Source of the DNA: a virus
DNA: 24,396 nt
Virus record (IMG/VR): IMGVR_UViG_3300037450_000086
Coordinates: 1 to 24,396 of that record
Strand: one strand, 5' to 3'
Below the pieces are notes generated by a model. It was not told the origin of the DNA, did no database searches, and saw only the letters and a program-made list of their open reading frames with translations. Shown here piece by piece: positions 5,426-20,161 of the stretch (position 1 is the first letter of the stretch; every line of letters starts with the position of its first letter). Made by a program: the position numbers and the translations under genes.

Positions 5426-8400
5426 TTACCTCGTCGCCATGATTCGCCCGAACTCGCGTTCGAGGAAGTCACGCATCGTCAGACCCAAAGTCGCCTCGTT
5501 GACTTCGAGCGTCATGCGTCCACGTTCTGCCGTCGCCGCATTCTGTATGCCTTGACTGCCTGCTCCGGCCTGCGATTCGAGCGGAGTCGTGCCGACGAAC
5601 CCACCGTCGGCGAATGCCGTGCGCCGGGGTCGCGTGATCGACAACTTGCGATTGCTACGGGCAGGTTTCGGGAACACGCCCCGGTTGATTGCTTCCATCA
5701 GTTGTACGCCGTACTTGTCAACCGCCGCCGCCTTGATCACATACTCGCCCGCCGACAGCATTGCCGGGATCGAATCGGACACCTTCGTGCCGGGTCCGCG
5801 TAGCTTGCCGCCCCCGGTTGCCACCTTCAGCACCCCGCCGCCCTTCGCGGCCCGGTAGACGTTGCCACTCGGATGTGCCGTGAGCGTCCCTCTGCGCCGC
5901 TGTGCGAGGTTTTGCAATGTGGGCATGGCAAGGCCCGCCATATACCCCCCGCGTGCAGCGTGCGCGATATAACCGCCTCTCGCTGCAATTAAGCCACCCC
6001 CCGAACCAAGCAGACTGCCAAGCACCGATTCACCACCGAACAGGGACGTCAGCAGTTTCTGCGCGAGTTTCTCTGCGATCAGTCGCTTGACCCGGTCGCC
6101 GATGCTTTGCAGCATCTGCGTGAATGCCTCATTGATGTCATCCGTGCCCTGTAGTATCTCTTCGAAAAAGTCCGCGAGTGCCCCTTCGGTTGCGGTCAGT
6201 ACCTGTGACTCGAACACGCTGATCGTGGTCGTCAGGTCTTTCACCTTGCCGTCAATCAGTTCAATCATCGCGATCAGTGCTTCGGCCTCGGGGCCTTCCC
6301 CGGCAACCGCTAGGGCCTCGACAAGTGCCTGTCGCAGTGCGTTATACGATGCGATTGCCTGATCGTTCGCGGCCCTGACCTTGTCGGCAAATTCCTGCGG
6401 TGAGATTTCATCGGAATCGAGTAGCGCCTTCAGGCGAATCAGTTCAGCCTGCAACACCGTGCTGATGTTCGTGACCTGACTCTGAAACCCTTCGACCGCA
6501 CTCTCGGCAAGTCTCGCCCCGGCCTCGAAGGTATCGGTCTGCGCATTGAGTACTGTGACTGCGATGTCTGCCCCGATCTTTTGCTGCGCGGTCACGAGGG
6601 CAACTTCTGCTGCTGCAATCTGATCGGACAGGTCCTTGCTCGTGTCCGCTGCTGCCTTCGCTTTTAAGTTGGCAATCTTCGCTTCGCCTTCTGCCGTCAC
6701 TGCATCGAGACGCTTGCGAAGACCTTCGAGGTCAGCCTGCAGTTGCGCGTCAATACGCCCTCGTTCTCGTTCTGCAAACTCTTCGCCGGTAATATCCCCG
6801 GCAGCGAGTGCCGCCCGATCTCGTGCCGCCTGCTGCCGATTGATCGCCTGCTGAAGTCGCGAGCGTGCGGCTGTCTGTGCCTGTATCTGCTTAGTCAGTG
6901 ACCGGGCAATCGAGAGTTCCTCGGCAGCGATCCGCAGATTTTCCGTGGTCAGGTCCTGCTTCCGTTTTTCCGCGTCGGCCTGCCGTTCAATCTCGTCGGC
7001 TTGATCTGATGCCGCCTCCACACGACGTTGCAGCACCCCTTGTGCTGTACGCAGTATCGTGACCTCGTCATTTATTTCAGCAATACGTTCTCGTGCGAGG
7101 TCCCGCTCTTCGGTCGCCAGTCGAATACGTTCTTTCTGATCCCGTCGCGCTTTACGATTTGCGATGCCGCCCTTGATTGCCGGGTCTTCGACTGCCTGAA
7201 TCGACACCTCGCGCAGGGTTTCGGCCTCGGCGATTAGCTCAGCAATTGCGTCCTCGGTTTCTTTGAGATCATCTTGATATTGCTTGAGATTTTCGGGATT
7301 GATCTCGGCATCGCTAATCGTTTCGATCTTGTCAGTGAACTCGGCGATCAGTTCTTCGGTGTCTTTGATGTCAGCATTCAACCCTGCGAGGTCTTCCTTC
7401 AGGCGTGCGATTGACCTGTTCGCACTTCGCCGTCCCTGCCCTCGTGCACTGCCGAGTCTGTCAATTTCTTCTTGCGCTTCTCTCGCCGCTGCCTTCAATT
7501 CTCGAAGCGTCTGCTGCGCTTCACTCAGTGCCCGCACTTGTCCGACGTCATCGAGGTCATTGAAGGTCTGTTTCAGTCGTTCGTTCGCATCGGCGAGGTC
7601 TTCAACGTCCTCTTCTGCTGCTGCCGCGCTCCCGGCGAATAGCGCGAGCGCCGTGACCACGAGACCGAGAATCGGTACTGCAAATCGCAACGCCAACCCG
7701 AACCCGCGCATTGCTGTCGCTGCAACTCCGGTCGTCAGTCCGAGTTGCGTCATCTTCGCGGTCACGATGCCGATGCTGCCCTGAACGAAGATAAGACCTC
7801 GACCCACGAGTGCCAGCGACACCGCGAGCGTGCCAAGTGCCGTCGCCGCAAGACCGAGGGTCGCAGTGAATGCCGTTACGAAACGCACGACCGGGGACTG
7901 TTCGAGCAGGGTTGTGAATCCCGCTGCCAGTTCACCGACCGCAACTACAATCGGTTGAATCGCCGGGACCACGAGATCGCCGAGTGCCTCGAATGCGTTG
8001 CCCGTGCGGGTCACCGCCTGTTCGAGACTCGTGCCGAATGCTTCCTCGACTTCTGCCGCTGCCGCTGCTGCGTCACCGGATGCGTTGACCTGATCTTCGA
8101 GTTGTTTCCTGAACTCGTCGAGTTGCGGACCGGTCAACCCGAGTACCGCACCCACGCCCTCGATACTGCCAAGCAATTTATTCAGCACGCCGACGTTGCC
8201 GTTTGCCGCCTTGCGTACGATATCGAATGCCTTCGCGAGACCCTGCTCTGCGATGACCTTCTGCGCCCCGCCGAGGTCCTCGAAGATTTCGTTCAGTTCC
8301 GGGGTGTCACGGACGATGCCATTGATCGCCGATCTGATCTGCGTGAATGCGACACGGGTCGGTACACCTTGCTTCGTCAGGGTGACGAGTGCTGCGTTCA

Positions 8401-9115
8401 GTTCCTCGAAGCGAACCCCGAGTTGTGATGCGACCGGTGCAGCCTGAAACAAGAACCGCGACAGTTCGTCAATCGTGGTTCGACCATTCTTAACCGTGAC
8501 GAACAACTTGTCGGCGACAGTCTCTGCTTCTTCGGCACTAAACCCGAACGAGTTCATCACTGTCGACAGTCCGTCGACCGCTGCTGACACTGAAGTCACA
8601 CCACCGCGTGCGGTGATCAGCGCAACTCGCAATATCTCGTTCGCTTCCGCGCCCGCTGCTGCGCCTGATGAAATTGCCTGATACAAGCCTCGGGCCACCT
8701 CACCGCGTGCCTGCCCGAACTCGTTCGACAACTCGATGATCGTCTGCCGCAGTTCTTCAGTGCTCTGTACCGCGTCATCGACAAGGGTGCCGACCTCGGC
8801 GACTTCAGTCGAGAACTGTGCCGTCGAGCGTAGACCGATCAGGAAGGGTGCCGCGATTGCTGCGCCGAGACCCGCGATTGCGAGTCCTGCGTTGCGGACG
8901 GTGTCTAGTTGTGCGTTTGCTTTTTCGGTCGCGGACTTGATGTCCGTGATTTCTTTTTCGAGCCGGTCGTATTCCTTGCGGACGTCCTTCGTATCTTGAC
9001 CGTTGAGTGCTTCCGCTTCATCGTTGACCGCATCGAGTTCCGTGCGGATCGTTTTCAGACCCTTCGTCAATTCGTCCTTGAGACGAATAAGTACGTCGAT
9101 GCGTGATTCAGCCAT
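5426..9115 (-). CDS. Tail tape measure protein (TP901-like)
   Basis: 1229 residues, the largest gene in the window. It sets tail length and is threaded through the tail tube; at the commonly used figure of about 1.5 angstrom per residue the tail would be near 180 nm. Residues 1-75 are a charged coiled coil, and a hydrophobic stretch (AIAGLGAAIAAPFLIGL) follows. Residues about 95-330 match the TP901-type tape-measure core (GEVARGLYQAISSGA, VTSVSAAVDGLSTVMNSFG, TKQGVPTRVAFTQI). A second hydrophobic cluster lies near 395-485, then long coiled coils to about 950. The C-terminus has the usual GPGTKVSDSIPAMLSAGEYV block. The ATG lies inside the end of the frameshifted chaperone frame (8-base overlap), as in lambda-like tails. 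Its partners are the tail tube protein and the two chaperones. Confidence 0.95.
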   Translation of the reverse strand: MAESRIDVLIRLKDELTKGLKTIRTELDAVNDEAEALNGQDTKDVRKEYDRLEKEITDIKSATEKANAQLDTVRNAGLAIAGLGAAIAAPFLIGLRSTAQFSTEVAEVGTLVDDAVQSTEELRQTIIELSNEFGQARGEVARGLYQAISSGAAAGAEANEILRVALITARGGVTSVSAAVDGLSTVMNSFGFSAEEAETVADKLFVTVKNGRTTIDELSRFLFQAAPVASQLGVRFEELNAALVTLTKQGVPTRVAFTQIRSAINGIVRDTPELNEIFEDLGGAQKVIAEQGLAKAFDIVRKAANGNVGVLNKLLGSIEGVGAVLGLTGPQLDEFRKQLEDQVNASGDAAAAAAEVEEAFGTSLEQAVTRTGNAFEALGDLVVPAIQPIVVAVGELAAGFTTLLEQSPVVRFVTAFTATLGLAATALGTLAVSLALVGRGLIFVQGSIGIVTAKMTQLGLTTGVAATAMRGFGLALRFAVPILGLVVTALALFAGSAAAAEEDVEDLADANERLKQTFNDLDDVGQVRALSEAQQTLRELKAAAREAQEEIDRLGSARGQGRRSANRSIARLKEDLAGLNADIKDTEELIAEFTDKIETISDAEINPENLKQYQDDLKETEDAIAELIAEAETLREVSIQAVEDPAIKGGIANRKARRDQKERIRLATEERDLARERIAEINDEVTILRTAQGVLQRRVEAASDQADEIERQADAEKRKQDLTTENLRIAAEELSIARSLTKQIQAQTAARSRLQQAINRQQAARDRAALAAGDITGEEFAERERGRIDAQLQADLEGLRKRLDAVTAEGEAKIANLKAKAAADTSKDLSDQIAAAEVALVTAQQKIGADIAVTVLNAQTDTFEAGARLAESAVEGFQSQVTNISTVLQAELIRLKALLDSDEISPQEFADKVRAANDQAIASYNALRQALVEALAVAGEGPEAEALIAMIELIDGKVKDLTTTISVFESQVLTATEGALADFFEEILQGTDDINEAFTQMLQSIGDRVKRLIAEKLAQKLLTSLFGGESVLGSLLGSGGGLIAARGGYIAHAARGGYMAGLAMPTLQNLAQRRRGTLTAHPSGNVYRAAKGGGVLKVATGGGKLRGPGTKVSDSIPAMLSAGEYVIKAAAVDKYGVQLMEAINRGVFPKPARSNRKLSITRPRRTAFADGGFVGTTPLESQAGAGSQGIQNAATAERGRMTLEVNEATLGLTMRDFLEREFGRIMATR

Positions 9116-9748
9116 TGTCGTCGAGTTCCTTTAGCAGTGCCGTGAACGCTTTTTTATCACCCCATACTGCCGCTCGAATGCCGACCATGAACTGTGACTG
9201 CTCTCTACCGAGACGATTCTCCGCTAGTTGTGTGAGTGCCAACAACCGGCGCAACGGTAGCTTGAACACTTTGTCAAGGTCGTGTCCGCTCGCAACTAAG
9301 AGTTCTGCGCCCTCTGCAAGGCCGCTGAGCCAGTCGGCAAGCCTTGCTTCAGAACTTCGAGGTTCTCGGCGTTGAGTCTGCTGACGCCTTCTAGCAGACT
9401 CGTTGCTAACTTTCCCACCGTCTCAACATCCAGACTCGACAGTTCCCAAATTTCCTGAATCGCACGCAGTTGCACGCCCACCGGCACCTTCATGATCTCG
9501 TCTTCAAGATCATGTTCGCCTGATGCGTATGCAATCGCGGCTGCGATAAAGTTCGGAAATTCTTTGATCAGCTTGCTGAAGTCGGTGTCGCCACCGCCCG
9601 CGCCGCCGAACACTCGAATGAGTGCGTCTTTGTGGTTCTCTAGCAACAGTACCAAGTCTTCGAGGGACAACCCCCGGACCTCAAACTCTACCCCGCTCTT
9701 CGCATCTTTGATGACCGCTTTGCGGTCGACTAAGTCTCGCAAACTCAT
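9108..9748 (-). CDS. Long tail assembly chaperone made by -1 frameshift (gpGT-like)
   Basis: This is a predicted fusion product. Ribosomes read 113 codons from 9748, slip back one base on G_GGA_AAG (9416-9410), and continue from 9410 to a TGA at 9110-9108, adding 100 residues for 213 in total. The extension has no ATG of its own near its beginning. Its sequence is protein-like (EARLADWLSGLAEGAELLVA, then LPLRRLLALTQLAENRLG and AAVWGDKKAFTALLKEL) and stays open while overlapping the last 38 codons of the short form. It ends 8 bases inside the tape-measure gene. In lambda, gpGT recruits the tail tube protein through its T part while the G part binds the tape measure. The same role is inferred here from gene position and the slippery site. 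Confidence 0.88.
9296..9748 (-). CDS. Short tail assembly chaperone (gpG-like)
   Basis: 150 residues, read from an ATG at 9748 to a TAG at 9298-9296. AGGG and GAGGG stretches precede the start. The protein is acidic and helical (GLSLEDLVLLLENHKDAL, VQLRAIQEIWELSSLDVETV), typical in size and character of the first tail chaperone of siphoviruses. It lies between the tail tube gene and the tape measure, which is the invariant place of this gene. Codons 112-113 form the slippery site, so a fraction of ribosomes should make the 213-residue form and the rest this one. It is a non-virion assembly factor thought to coat the tape measure before the tube polymerises. A terminator-like hairpin upstream would lower its expression relative to the tail tube protein. 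Confidence 0.85.
   Translation of the reverse strand: MSLRDLVDRKAVIKDAKSGVEFEVRGLSLEDLVLLLENHKDALIRVFGGAGGGDTDFSKLIKEFPNFIAAAIAYASGEHDLEDEIMKVPVGVQLRAIQEIWELSSLDVETVGKLATSLLEGVSRLNAENLEVLKQGLPTGSAALQRAQNS
9374..9416 (-). promoter_or_regulatory. Programmed -1 ribosomal frameshift signal: GGGAAAG plus stem-loop
   Basis: The heptamer GGGAAAG occupies 9416-9410 in the frame G_GGA_AAG, with the first G the third base of a GTG codon. This is the X_XXY_YYZ form and the same heptamer known from lambda G/GT. Eight bases downstream a perfect 9-bp stem begins: GAGTCTGCT (9401-9393) pairs with AGCAGACTC (9382-9374) around a 10-base loop. A stem at this spacing is the usual stimulator of -1 slippage. The -1 frame then stays open for 100 codons. 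Confidence 0.9.
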
Positions 9749-9777: not shown

Positions 9778-9818
9778 AAATGCAAAGGGGCAGAGTCCAA
9801 TTGATTGGACCGTGCCCC
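9778..9818 (-). terminator. Terminator-like hairpin after the tail tube gene
   Basis: On the minus strand GGGGCA (9818-9813) pairs with TGCCCC (9792-9787). The inner arms are TCCAAT/ATTGGA, so the whole structure is about a 14-bp stem with one C-C mismatch and one G-T pair. It is followed by TTTGCATTTAG, a broken T-tract. It begins 15 bases after the tail tube stop codon. A partial terminator here would explain high expression of the tube relative to the chaperones. The weak T-run keeps confidence moderate. Confidence 0.55.
9796..9809. repeat. TCCAAT-CA-ATTGGA spaced palindrome, copy 2
   Basis: An exact copy of the 14-bp element, between the tail tube and chaperone genes. It forms the upper half of the terminator-like hairpin. 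The central dinucleotide is in the opposite orientation to copies 1, 4, 5 and 6. Confidence 0.75.
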
Positions 9819-9833
9819 CCTGCCGTTACTCGT

Positions 9834-10610
9834 TTATGTCACCGTCGGCGAATGCCTGATAGTGAAGAACTTCGAGCCGGTTGATCTCGTTGCGTCGGAT
9901 AGTGCCGTCGCCTCGACTGCCATCTGACTGATCTCGTCGTTGATCAGTGCCAGTTCTGCCAACGGGGTGATATCCATCTTGTAGACATCGACCACAACCG
10001 GGTTGTCCGAGTCGACCGTATTCAGTCCGTGGAATCGTGCCCATCGCTGCGGGTTCGAGGCAACCGTCAGTGCGTCGACAGTTTCCTGAATCGCGTAGGC
10101 ATAGTCCCACTCGACCGCCTGTGTGTCGGTGATCGTACCCGTCGATAGCGTACGGAATGCGCCCGCTGCTGCGTCGAGTTCGTAGTCAGTGTCGAGGGTG
10201 TAGGTCACGATGCCACCCGTATTCGTCAACACAAACGTCGAGACGTTGATGTGTTCGAGCGGGGTCCACAAGTCGTGATAGGCCACACCTGCGACGTCGG
10301 TCACCGAACTCGCAGTGACGTCCGCTGCTGTGCCTTTCAGCGCAATCGCGAGGTTCTCACTGATCAGTGATTCCATCGTCATAGATACGGCAACGTTGAT
10401 CTCGGTCACGAGCGTGATGTCAACGGCGCGAACGCCTGACTGCGACTCTTTGTGCTCGAACTCCGTGACCTCGTTACCGATGGTCAGTGCCGATACGTTA
10501 CCGACTGCGCGGAACCCTGAGTTCGGTTCGCCTGTCGTTCCGTCTTTCGTCGCCAGCAACAGCACACCCTGACCGGAGAGATAGTTGCTGCTTTCTTGAG
10601 CAGTAGTCAT
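9834..10610 (-). CDS. Major tail tube protein
   Basis: 258 residues. The ATG at 10610 has a strong AGGAG 9 bases before it. The protein is beta-rich, Thr/Val/Asp-rich and lacks cysteine, signal peptide or membrane segments. It opens with a segment LSGQGVLLLATKDG typical of tail tube proteins, followed by NVSALTIGNEVTEFEHKESQ, a strand-turn-strand pattern seen in this class. Size and position, between the tail completion genes and the frameshifting chaperones, are those of the polymerising tube subunit of a siphovirus. A terminator-like hairpin follows. I see no added Ig domain at the C-terminus. It would stack in rings around the tape measure and dock on the tail terminator protein. Confidence 0.85.
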   Translation of the reverse strand: MTTAQESSNYLSGQGVLLLATKDGTTGEPNSGFRAVGNVSALTIGNEVTEFEHKESQSGVRAVDITLVTEINVAVSMTMESLISENLAIALKGTAADVTASSVTDVAGVAYHDLWTPLEHINVSTFVLTNTGGIVTYTLDTDYELDAAAGAFRTLSTGTITDTQAVEWDYAYAIQETVDALTVASNPQRWARFHGLNTVDSDNPVVVDVYKMDITPLAELALINDEISQMAVEATALSDATRSTGSKFFTIRHSPTVT

Positions 10611-18079: not shown

Positions 18080-18350
18080 TGAGCACCGCCGATGCCGTTC
18101 GTAATTCGGCGACGCGTTTCATGTTGAGCGTTTCTTCGATAAGGGGGTCTTCAGGCAGACCCGCTTCGAGCGATGCGATGTACACTTCCTCGGGAGTCAT
18201 CGCTTCAGCCTGATCGGCCTCGGCATCCGTGAAGTCACTGTAATGCTCTGCCGGGATCAGTTCGCCGTTCGCGTAGGTCAGCAGTTCCTCGGACACGGAC
18301 GAGCGCACGCCCTGTGCCGGTTGCGTGTCGATCTTTTTCTGTTTTTTCAT
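18072..18350 (-). CDS. Small acidic protein coupled to the MuF-zeta gene
   Basis: 92 residues. Its ATG overlaps the TGA of the MuF-zeta gene (ATGA), so translation is probably coupled. After a basic start (MKKQKK) the protein is acidic, with about 18 Asp/Glu against 8 Lys/Arg. It contains a segment with TDAEADQAEAMTPEEVYIAS and a C-terminal helix (MKRVAELRTASAVLNA). There is no membrane segment or known motif. A small acidic gene directly attached to a gene with a toxin-like kinase domain is a candidate immunity protein. Equally, it could be a small head-assembly protein. I do not recognise a family. Confidence 0.7.
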   Translation of the reverse strand: MKKQKKIDTQPAQGVRSSVSEELLTYANGELIPAEHYSDFTDAEADQAEAMTPEEVYIASLEAGLPEDPLIEETLNMKRVAELRTASAVLNA

Positions 18351-20161
18351 GGTGTTCCGATCCCTGCCGGTAGATTGTTACCACCGACGAACCGGGGGAG
18401 TGCTCCGGGTTCGACTTGATTATCCCATAGACCCCATCGAGTGAACAGGTGCTTCAGTGCGTCGAATGCGTCCTCGTTGTCGAGGTTCTGCAGGATGATG
18501 TCAATCGGCACATACCGCAGTTCCTCGCCCTTCTCGATAGCACGAAACACTGACCTGAATGCTGCTTCCTGTCGCGGCAGGTGCATGTAGTATCCCTCGA
18601 CCGTGTAGCCTGCTTCGGTATACGCACCGACCGTGCGTGTTGCTTTATCAATCCCGCCCATCGTGGTATCGAGCACGACGTTGATGCGCCGCTGTCGTGC
18701 GATCTTCTCGATTCGTTTCAATAGATAGGACCCCTCGACGTGCACCTGTCCTGCGTTCCATCCTTCGTATTCGGGCAGCAATCCCTTGATCTCGTCCGAG
18801 TTGAGCACGACTTTGTTGCTAAGATCGACCGGTGCCCCCTTGCCTTTCTTGTCGGTGCCCTTTGTCAGGAAGGTCTTGCCGGAACCGCCGCGCCCGCCGA
18901 GGATCGTCATTACCGGGGCCTCGCCTTCAAGTGCGGTCGCCCTCGCGATCACGTCCTCATTCAATACATCGTCGATGATCTTATTGTGCAGTTTCACCCG
19001 CTCAGGTAGCCAATTGCCCTCGCTGTCTTGCCACGTCTTGTGCGTCGAGGTGCGTTTCTTCAGCCGCGTTTCGTAGTCGCGAATCACACCGGCAACACTC
19101 GGATCGTGCCGTGCGAGCACATCGTCCGGGGTGACCCCCGGCACGAAGAACCGGTCACGGTATTCGGCTGCGCTGCCGGTGAACGGCAACTCGTGCGGGT
19201 CGAGTACCCCGATCTCGTCCGGAGATACATTCGGCAACGGGGCCTCGCGAACGTCGCCGAGTTCCGGTTGCGTCGGCAACTTTTCCTCCAGCGACCCGGC
19301 AGGTACGAGCACCCCCCGGCACAAGGGGTGATACGGGGGAGTGTCCCACCCGTTCTGCTGTAGGCGCGAGTTTGACATCTGTGCCAGCAACTTGACTGAC
19401 TTGCGGTCTTGCTTCGGCCACGGTGCGATGCTCTTCAACTCATTCATGTCGGTGACCGACATCTGTGTCTCTAGCTTCGTCTGTGCCGGTCTGACCGCGA
19501 ACTTCCTGCCGTGCATGGTGCGACACACCGGGCAGGTACGCGAGTCGAGTTGTTCGCTGACCTGATAGAACTTGATGCCTCTGAAGTTCGCCTCTTGCGT
19601 GAATCCCCACGCACTCAGACGCGACGTGTGCAATGACGAGCCGATGTCGATGAACGCCTTCCCGTTGCCCCGAACACTTGACGTGAAGCGTTTGACAAAC
19701 CCTGATGTGCTGTTCTTGCGTACCTGCTCGTCTGCTTTGATCGCCTCTTCCTGCTGCGCAGCCCGTTCCTCGGTGATCAGTTTCTGCGCTTCCCGGCAGA
19801 CGTCCTCGGTCGCCGTCCCGCCTAGCATGTCGACCATCGCCTCGGATGCCCGTGTGACTTCCTCGGGTTGCTTCGCGCCTTCGTCAACGAAGACCGTGCT
19901 GCGGGGATTACCTCGGGTCAGTCGGGACGCGCCGAAGATCGTCGCCTGCATGCCGATGAACTCGGTGAACCGCTGATTGTGAGTCGCTGCGGGTGCCATG
20001 CTGAGACCATCGCAGTTGTCGATTGCAGTTTCGAAGTCGCCCCGGTTGACCGCTGCGAGAATTGTCCGCATCGCGTCATTTGAGTCGCGCTCCCACTGTT
20101 TCAGGATGCGATTCGAGAGAGACTTCTCAAGAACTAGGAATGATTCAACTGCCGTAGTCAT
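18347..20161 (-). CDS. MuF-type head protein fused to a zeta-toxin-like kinase
   Basis: 604 residues, starting 17 bases inside the end of the portal gene. Residues about 150-290 form the MuF-type domain, with DSRTCPVC (Cys210, Cys213) and PPYHPLCRG (His278, Cys281), a likely metal site. Residues about 350-580 look like a zeta-toxin/P-loop kinase: a helix with RVKLHNKII, Walker A GGRGGSGKT (Gly423, Lys429, Thr430), NSDEI (Asp456) at the catalytic acid position, then VEGSYL, NVVLDTT and HLPRQEAAFRSVFRAI with the expected arginines. Zeta kinases phosphorylate UDP-N-acetylamino sugars and so block cell-wall synthesis. MuF proteins sit inside the capsid on the portal and may be injected with DNA. 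MuF fused to toxin domains is a known class; activity here is inferred. The linker is about residues 291-350. Confidence 0.85.
   Translation of the reverse strand: MTTAVESFLVLEKSLSNRILKQWERDSNDAMRTILAAVNRGDFETAIDNCDGLSMAPAATHNQRFTEFIGMQATIFGASRLTRGNPRSTVFVDEGAKQPEEVTRASEAMVDMLGGTATEDVCREAQKLITEERAAQQEEAIKADEQVRKNSTSGFVKRFTSSVRGNGKAFIDIGSSLHTSRLSAWGFTQEANFRGIKFYQVSEQLDSRTCPVCRTMHGRKFAVRPAQTKLETQMSVTDMNELKSIAPWPKQDRKSVKLLAQMSNSRLQQNGWDTPPYHPLCRGVLVPAGSLEEKLPTQPELGDVREAPLPNVSPDEIGVLDPHELPFTGSAAEYRDRFFVPGVTPDDVLARHDPSVAGVIRDYETRLKKRTSTHKTWQDSEGNWLPERVKLHNKIIDDVLNEDVIARATALEGEAPVMTILGGRGGSGKTFLTKGTDKKGKGAPVDLSNKVVLNSDEIKGLLPEYEGWNAGQVHVEGSYLLKRIEKIARQRRINVVLDTTMGGIDKATRTVGAYTEAGYTVEGYYMHLPRQEAAFRSVFRAIEKGEELRYVPIDIILQNLDNEDAFDALKHLFTRWGLWDNQVEPGALPRFVGGNNLPAGIGTP

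Follow-up and report, generated by a model that had tools for sequence, protein, structure and literature searches.

Introduction

Tail assembly chaperone genes of the G/GT class have been known since lambda and are conserved in numerous tailed phages (Xu et al. 2004, cited in PMC5009743; PMC10885494). In lambda both products contain the part that binds the tape measure protein, while binding of the major tail protein falls to the -1 domain; the ratio of the two products, about 30:1, matters for assembly (PMC5009743). The heptamer used in lambda, G_GGA_AAG (PMC5009743, PMC7618472), is also used by phage TP901-1 (PMC4493119); it is highly shift-prone in E. coli (PMC5009743), which may not be the host of the phage described here, and shifting on it responds to tRNA-Lys modification (PMC7618472). 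For two tail-chaperone frameshift genes a shift of 6-7% was reported in another study (PMC3711429). A heptamer together with a downstream stem-loop as stimulator is known from E. coli dnaX (PMC3711429), a gene unrelated to the chaperone.

Gene order and chaperone family

The DNA analysed here (IMGVR_UViG_3300037450_000086, 24,396 nt; referred to as the window) is part of a viral contig and spans 24.4 kb; its nearest large relatives are L015 and L016, two contigs of about 92-94 kb. Its minus strand carries, in this order, the genes for a neck protein, a 158-aa protein, the major tail protein, the chaperone, the extension and the tape measure protein (Table 1). The 158-aa protein between the neck and major tail protein genes had no family match in the profile search. 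According to the profile matches, the chaperone gene sits between the major tail protein and tape measure genes, as the G/GT class requires, and the order from major tail protein to tape measure is the same as in lambda.

Table 1. Coordinates of features at the tail gene locus of the window
Feature	Coordinates	Strand	Remarks	Basis
Neck protein		-	upstream of 158-aa protein	phrog_26
Major tail protein	9834..10610	-	upstream neighbour of chaperone gene	phrog_807 3e-63
Tail assembly chaperone (pre-tape-measure protein)	9296..9748	-	zero-frame product, 150 aa, lambda gpG-like	PF23789, phrog_5260
Slippery heptamer G_GGA_AAG	9410..9416	-	chaperone codons 111-113	sequence; relatives
Stem, 9 bp perfect, 10-nt loop	9374..9401	-	8 nt 3' of heptamer; putative stimulator	sequence, folding, relatives
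-1 frame extension (GT-like domain)	9108..9416	-	including TGA	phrog_11703; pN/pS
Tape measure protein	5426..9115	-	1229 aa	phrog_23013 8.9e-79, PF10145 8.3e-27

Regarding its family, the chaperone matched PF23789 (Pre_tape_measure) at 7.8e-22 with 78.1 bits, the curated cut-off being 27, and phrog_5260 (tail protein) at 2.3e-24. No match was found in NCBIfam, and a search of the chaperone profile against PDB sequences gave no useful match. The predicted model of the chaperone is of moderate confidence (pLDDT 68); in the PDB fold search the HK97 tail assembly chaperone 2ob9 ranked first with an E-value of 0.64, which is not significant alone. A predicted fold match (E 4.7e-6, 20% identity) was found to the 'pre-tape measure frameshift protein G' of Xylella phage Sano, already named a frameshift gene by its annotators. 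No sequence family shared with lambda was detectable. In phrog_11703, positions 1-130 match the zero-frame part and positions 133-232 match the extension; this family covers both parts as one protein, and others have therefore already met the zero-frame part and the extension as one protein.

The slippery heptamer and the -1 reading frame

The sequence CTTTCCC on the plus strand at 9410-9416 reads GGGAAAG on the minus strand, and codons 111-113 of the ORF 9748-9296, towards its 3' end, are GTG GGA AAG, which frames the heptamer as G_GGA_AAG for a -1 slip, with the same bases and in the same frame as in lambda G/GT. After the slip the -1 frame stays open for 100 codons (9410-9111) up to a TGA at 9110-9108, and this stop overlaps the tape-measure ATG at 9115 by 8 nt, ATGGCTGA, the same 8 nt by which the extension stop overlaps the tape-measure start in lambda T/H. 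The resulting fusion would be 113 + 100 = 213 aa long, with the peptide AAVWGDK inside the extension. The two phages differ in the distance from the heptamer to the zero-frame stop, 40 codons in the window and 8 in lambda, and in the length of the extension, which is about 144 codons in lambda. The first-pass annotation had named the heptamer as that of lambda G/GT, had placed it in the correct frame and had described a -1 frame open for 100 codons, ending 8 bases into the tape-measure gene and yielding a 213-residue product; on each of these points our reading of the DNA agrees with it.

In-frame X_XXY_YYZ heptamers occur 10 times in the approximately 7,300 codons of the main genes of the window, and GGGAAAG at 9416-9410 is the only one of the 10 where the -1 frame is open for at least 100 codons. 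A -1 frame open that long is found at 4% of in-frame positions. Here it opens 2 codons upstream of the heptamer and then contains no ATG, GTG or TTG for 49 codons; an independent start therefore cannot yield the full extension. Some related records do annotate a short separate CDS at this place, as would be expected if translation of the extension began at a start codon of its own, giving a separate protein without any frameshifting. However, L012, L014 and L015 share with the window the lack of these start codons from the heptamer to codon 49, a point inside the conserved domain, and the slippery heptamer is conserved though its type varies. With no early start codon and a conserved heptamer we rejected a separate start, which we regard as very improbable.

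Past the zero-frame stop, pN/pS over five close sequences was 0.36 in the -1 frame and 1.04 and 1.38 in the other two frames, and most changes in this part affect third codon positions of the -1 frame. As far as these five sequences reach, this pattern of substitution shows purifying selection acting on the extension in the -1 frame only.

Conservation of the heptamer and the extension

Extra scans for relatives, in which the chaperone, extension and major tail protein served as queries, returned the same four close relatives plus L016, and the close alignment is therefore limited to five rows. Chaperone identity to the window amounts to 60-63% in L012, L013, L014 and L015 and to 37% in L016, and the extensions of these five relatives are 33-46% identical to that of the window. 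In all five the corresponding Gly-Lys codon pair is part of GGGAAAG or GGGAAAA, and Gly112-Lys113 are invariant in the alignment: GGGAAAG is present in L013/L002 and L016, and GGGAAAA in L012, L014 and L015 as well as in the more distant contigs L017-L019. A group of Vibrio, Salmonella and Xanthomonas siphophages (SAP012, XAP3, vB_VhaS-MS03 and others; phrog_11703/PF23789) resembles the window in its chaperone (~30% identity) and in a conserved -1 extension, but its heptamer is A_AAA_AAG, and in the alignment the site of the Vibrio phages comes four codons later. The heptamer is TTTTTTT or TTTTTTC (T_TTT_TTY) in a further group of more distant contigs, reached via the major tail protein, and in L050 GGGAAAC is found among several candidate heptamers. 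The -1 frames of the relatives with a heptamer all end near the tape-measure start.

All relatives whose chaperone gene could be identified have a slippery heptamer at about this position and an open -1 extension, with the exception of L049, where no in-frame X_XXY_YYZ heptamer was found in the distant chaperone homologue (L049:3001-3483); this record either shifts at a site of a different type or is arranged in another way. The stretches examined in L037, L042 and L051 yielded no identifiable chaperone gene. A frame change in a metagenomic contig can always be read as a decayed gene or a sequencing error, that is, as a long gene split by an indel. Here, however, more than 25 independent contigs and isolates show this frame change at the same position, each time at a slippery heptamer, the protein is conserved on both sides of it, and the zero frame continues to a proper stop. 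The relatives thus rule out a broken gene or a sequencing error, and we give this explanation practically no chance.

On this comparative evidence the tail-chaperone gene very probably belongs to the lambda G/GT class and uses programmed -1 frameshifting. The first-pass annotation had made this proposal and had named the loss of the heptamer and of the open -1 frame in close relatives as what would speak against it; the alignment revealed no such loss, and the conserved heptamer, -1 frame and position together with the coding selection strongly support the proposal. It had also expected the long product to be missed by ordinary gene calling, and this holds in the public records of related phages examined, where the extension is either unannotated or called as a separate short CDS.

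The heptamer type has switched (GGGAAAR, AAAAAAG, TTTTTTY) among the homologous or positionally equivalent chaperone genes of L012-L019, L003-L011 and L020-L043, with the predicted frameshift kept, and between the window and the Vibrio phages the site itself has moved. A scan of bacterial genomes yielded one distant relative, with no chaperone identifiable beside the match. On L051 (5001-6576), a contig of a Helicobacteraceae metagenome-assembled genome, two major-tail-protein-like genes are arranged in tandem.

The downstream stem-loop

An 8-nt spacer, TTAGCAAC (9409-9402), separates the heptamer from the stem-loop GAGTCTGCT-AGAAGGCGTC-AGCAGACTC at 9401-9374, in which nine Watson-Crick pairs close the 10-nt loop AGAAGGCGTC, just as had been described at first. 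No other perfect stem of 9 bp or more enclosing a loop of 3-12 nt occurs on the coding strand of the window; the arrangement is palindromic, so that the same one is found on the other strand. From base composition, about 1.1 stems of at least 9 bp with such loops are expected per strand over the whole window and about 3e-4 at this place. The 28-nt hairpin folds with -14.1 kcal/mol (z -4.0). Its energy stands out less when a wider segment of 86 nt is folded, which gave an uninformative z of -0.54, or when the best hairpins at other positions, whatever their size, serve as reference (rank about 0.08). In contrast to the clear hairpin in the window, no comparable simple stem was obtained when the lambda site was folded. 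The combination of a heptamer with a downstream stem-loop is shared with dnaX, which however has A_AAA_AAG and its own upstream Shine-Dalgarno-like element; none such is evident by eye in the window. The 8-nt spacing of the stem falls within the 5-10 nt of dnaX-like signals.

In the close alignment 82% of the cells are paired in the register of the stem, compared to 24-44% in slid registers, and two stem pairs are changed on both sides (UA/CG at columns 28-49 and GC/CG at 31-46). L012 has an 8-bp stem in the same register with a both-side change at one pair, and L014 and L015 have a weak, interrupted stem with a both-side change at another. The covariation score of these five related rows was reached by 56 of 500 shuffles, and we regard the covariation as suggestive, short of proof. 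An own perfect stem of 11 bp, TAAACCGTCTG/CAGACGGTTTA, begins 4 nt past the heptamer in L016, and strong hairpins were found at the sites of L022, L028, L036 and L040. L013 has kept G_GGA_AAG with no stable stem, and many distant relatives are also without one. Over 35 sites, hairpins were mildly stronger than elsewhere in the same loci (KS p 0.017, without correction for relatedness).

The first-pass annotation had taken the stem for an added stimulator, and this stands in part: the register is kept in close relatives with two compensatory positions, but not all relatives have a stem. The frameshift may well be real and the hairpin idle, with the heptamer alone sufficing, as in the stemless relatives; to this explanation, which the retained heptamer of L013 and the modest enrichment over the 35 sites favour, we give not much less than an even chance. 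It has to be set against the facts that the window has only this one such stem, at the usual spacing, that register and pairing are kept in L012 and in L014/L015, that L016 has a separate stem, and that the four sites named above have strong hairpins. Since the stem is present in some relatives and missing in others, and the enrichment is modest, stems are probably used in some lineages and are not a defining part of the frameshift signal; the stem at 9401-9374 is plausibly a lineage-specific stimulator rather than a conserved element. Going further, the hairpin might be a fast-evolving stimulator that tunes the ratio of chaperone to fusion in a given lineage and is gained, rewritten and lost while the heptamer stays, a tentative reading that we consider possible but somewhat doubtful. 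If true, this group of phages would set its product ratio by heptamer type and stem strength jointly.

Proposed mechanism

Slippage and its efficiency, a role for the stem and the separate tasks of the two products are inferred from the sequences. Most ribosomes would terminate at 9298-9296 and release the 150-aa chaperone, while a minority would slip back one base on G_GGA_AAG (GGA AAG to GGG AAA) and produce the 213-aa fusion. The 9-bp hairpin that follows after 8 nt perhaps assists this slip. If the two products work as in lambda, the N-terminal part common to both would bind the tape measure protein and the -1-frame domain would recruit the major tail protein, and a low fixed ratio of the two products would govern tail assembly.

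The site in the window is a fresh example of the long-known lambda G/GT mechanism and leaves the general picture of tail-chaperone frameshifting unaltered. It corrects the annotation of an uncultivated group of tailed phages, as well as that of records from related phages of Vibrio, Salmonella and Xanthomonas, which lack the long chaperone or have it split. How product ratios are tuned could moreover be studied on the set of homologous sites, which comprises three heptamer types and includes sites both with a stem and without one.

Other features of the window

A strong hairpin is located on the minus strand in the intergenic region between the major tail protein and chaperone genes (9782-9823). 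It consists of the palindrome GTCCAATCAATTGGAC inside a G-run/C-run stem, followed by a T-rich tail, has a z of -5.7 in the window and is conserved in L012-L015. It looks like a partial terminator or attenuator, and as such it would lower the expression of chaperone and tape measure relative to the major tail protein; it was absent from the output of a simple terminator scan. Next to the portal gene, a 604-aa protein is encoded on the minus strand at 18347-20161, which shows a weak match to Mu F-like head proteins and carries in its C-terminal half a Zeta-toxin-type kinase domain (PF06414, 7e-24).
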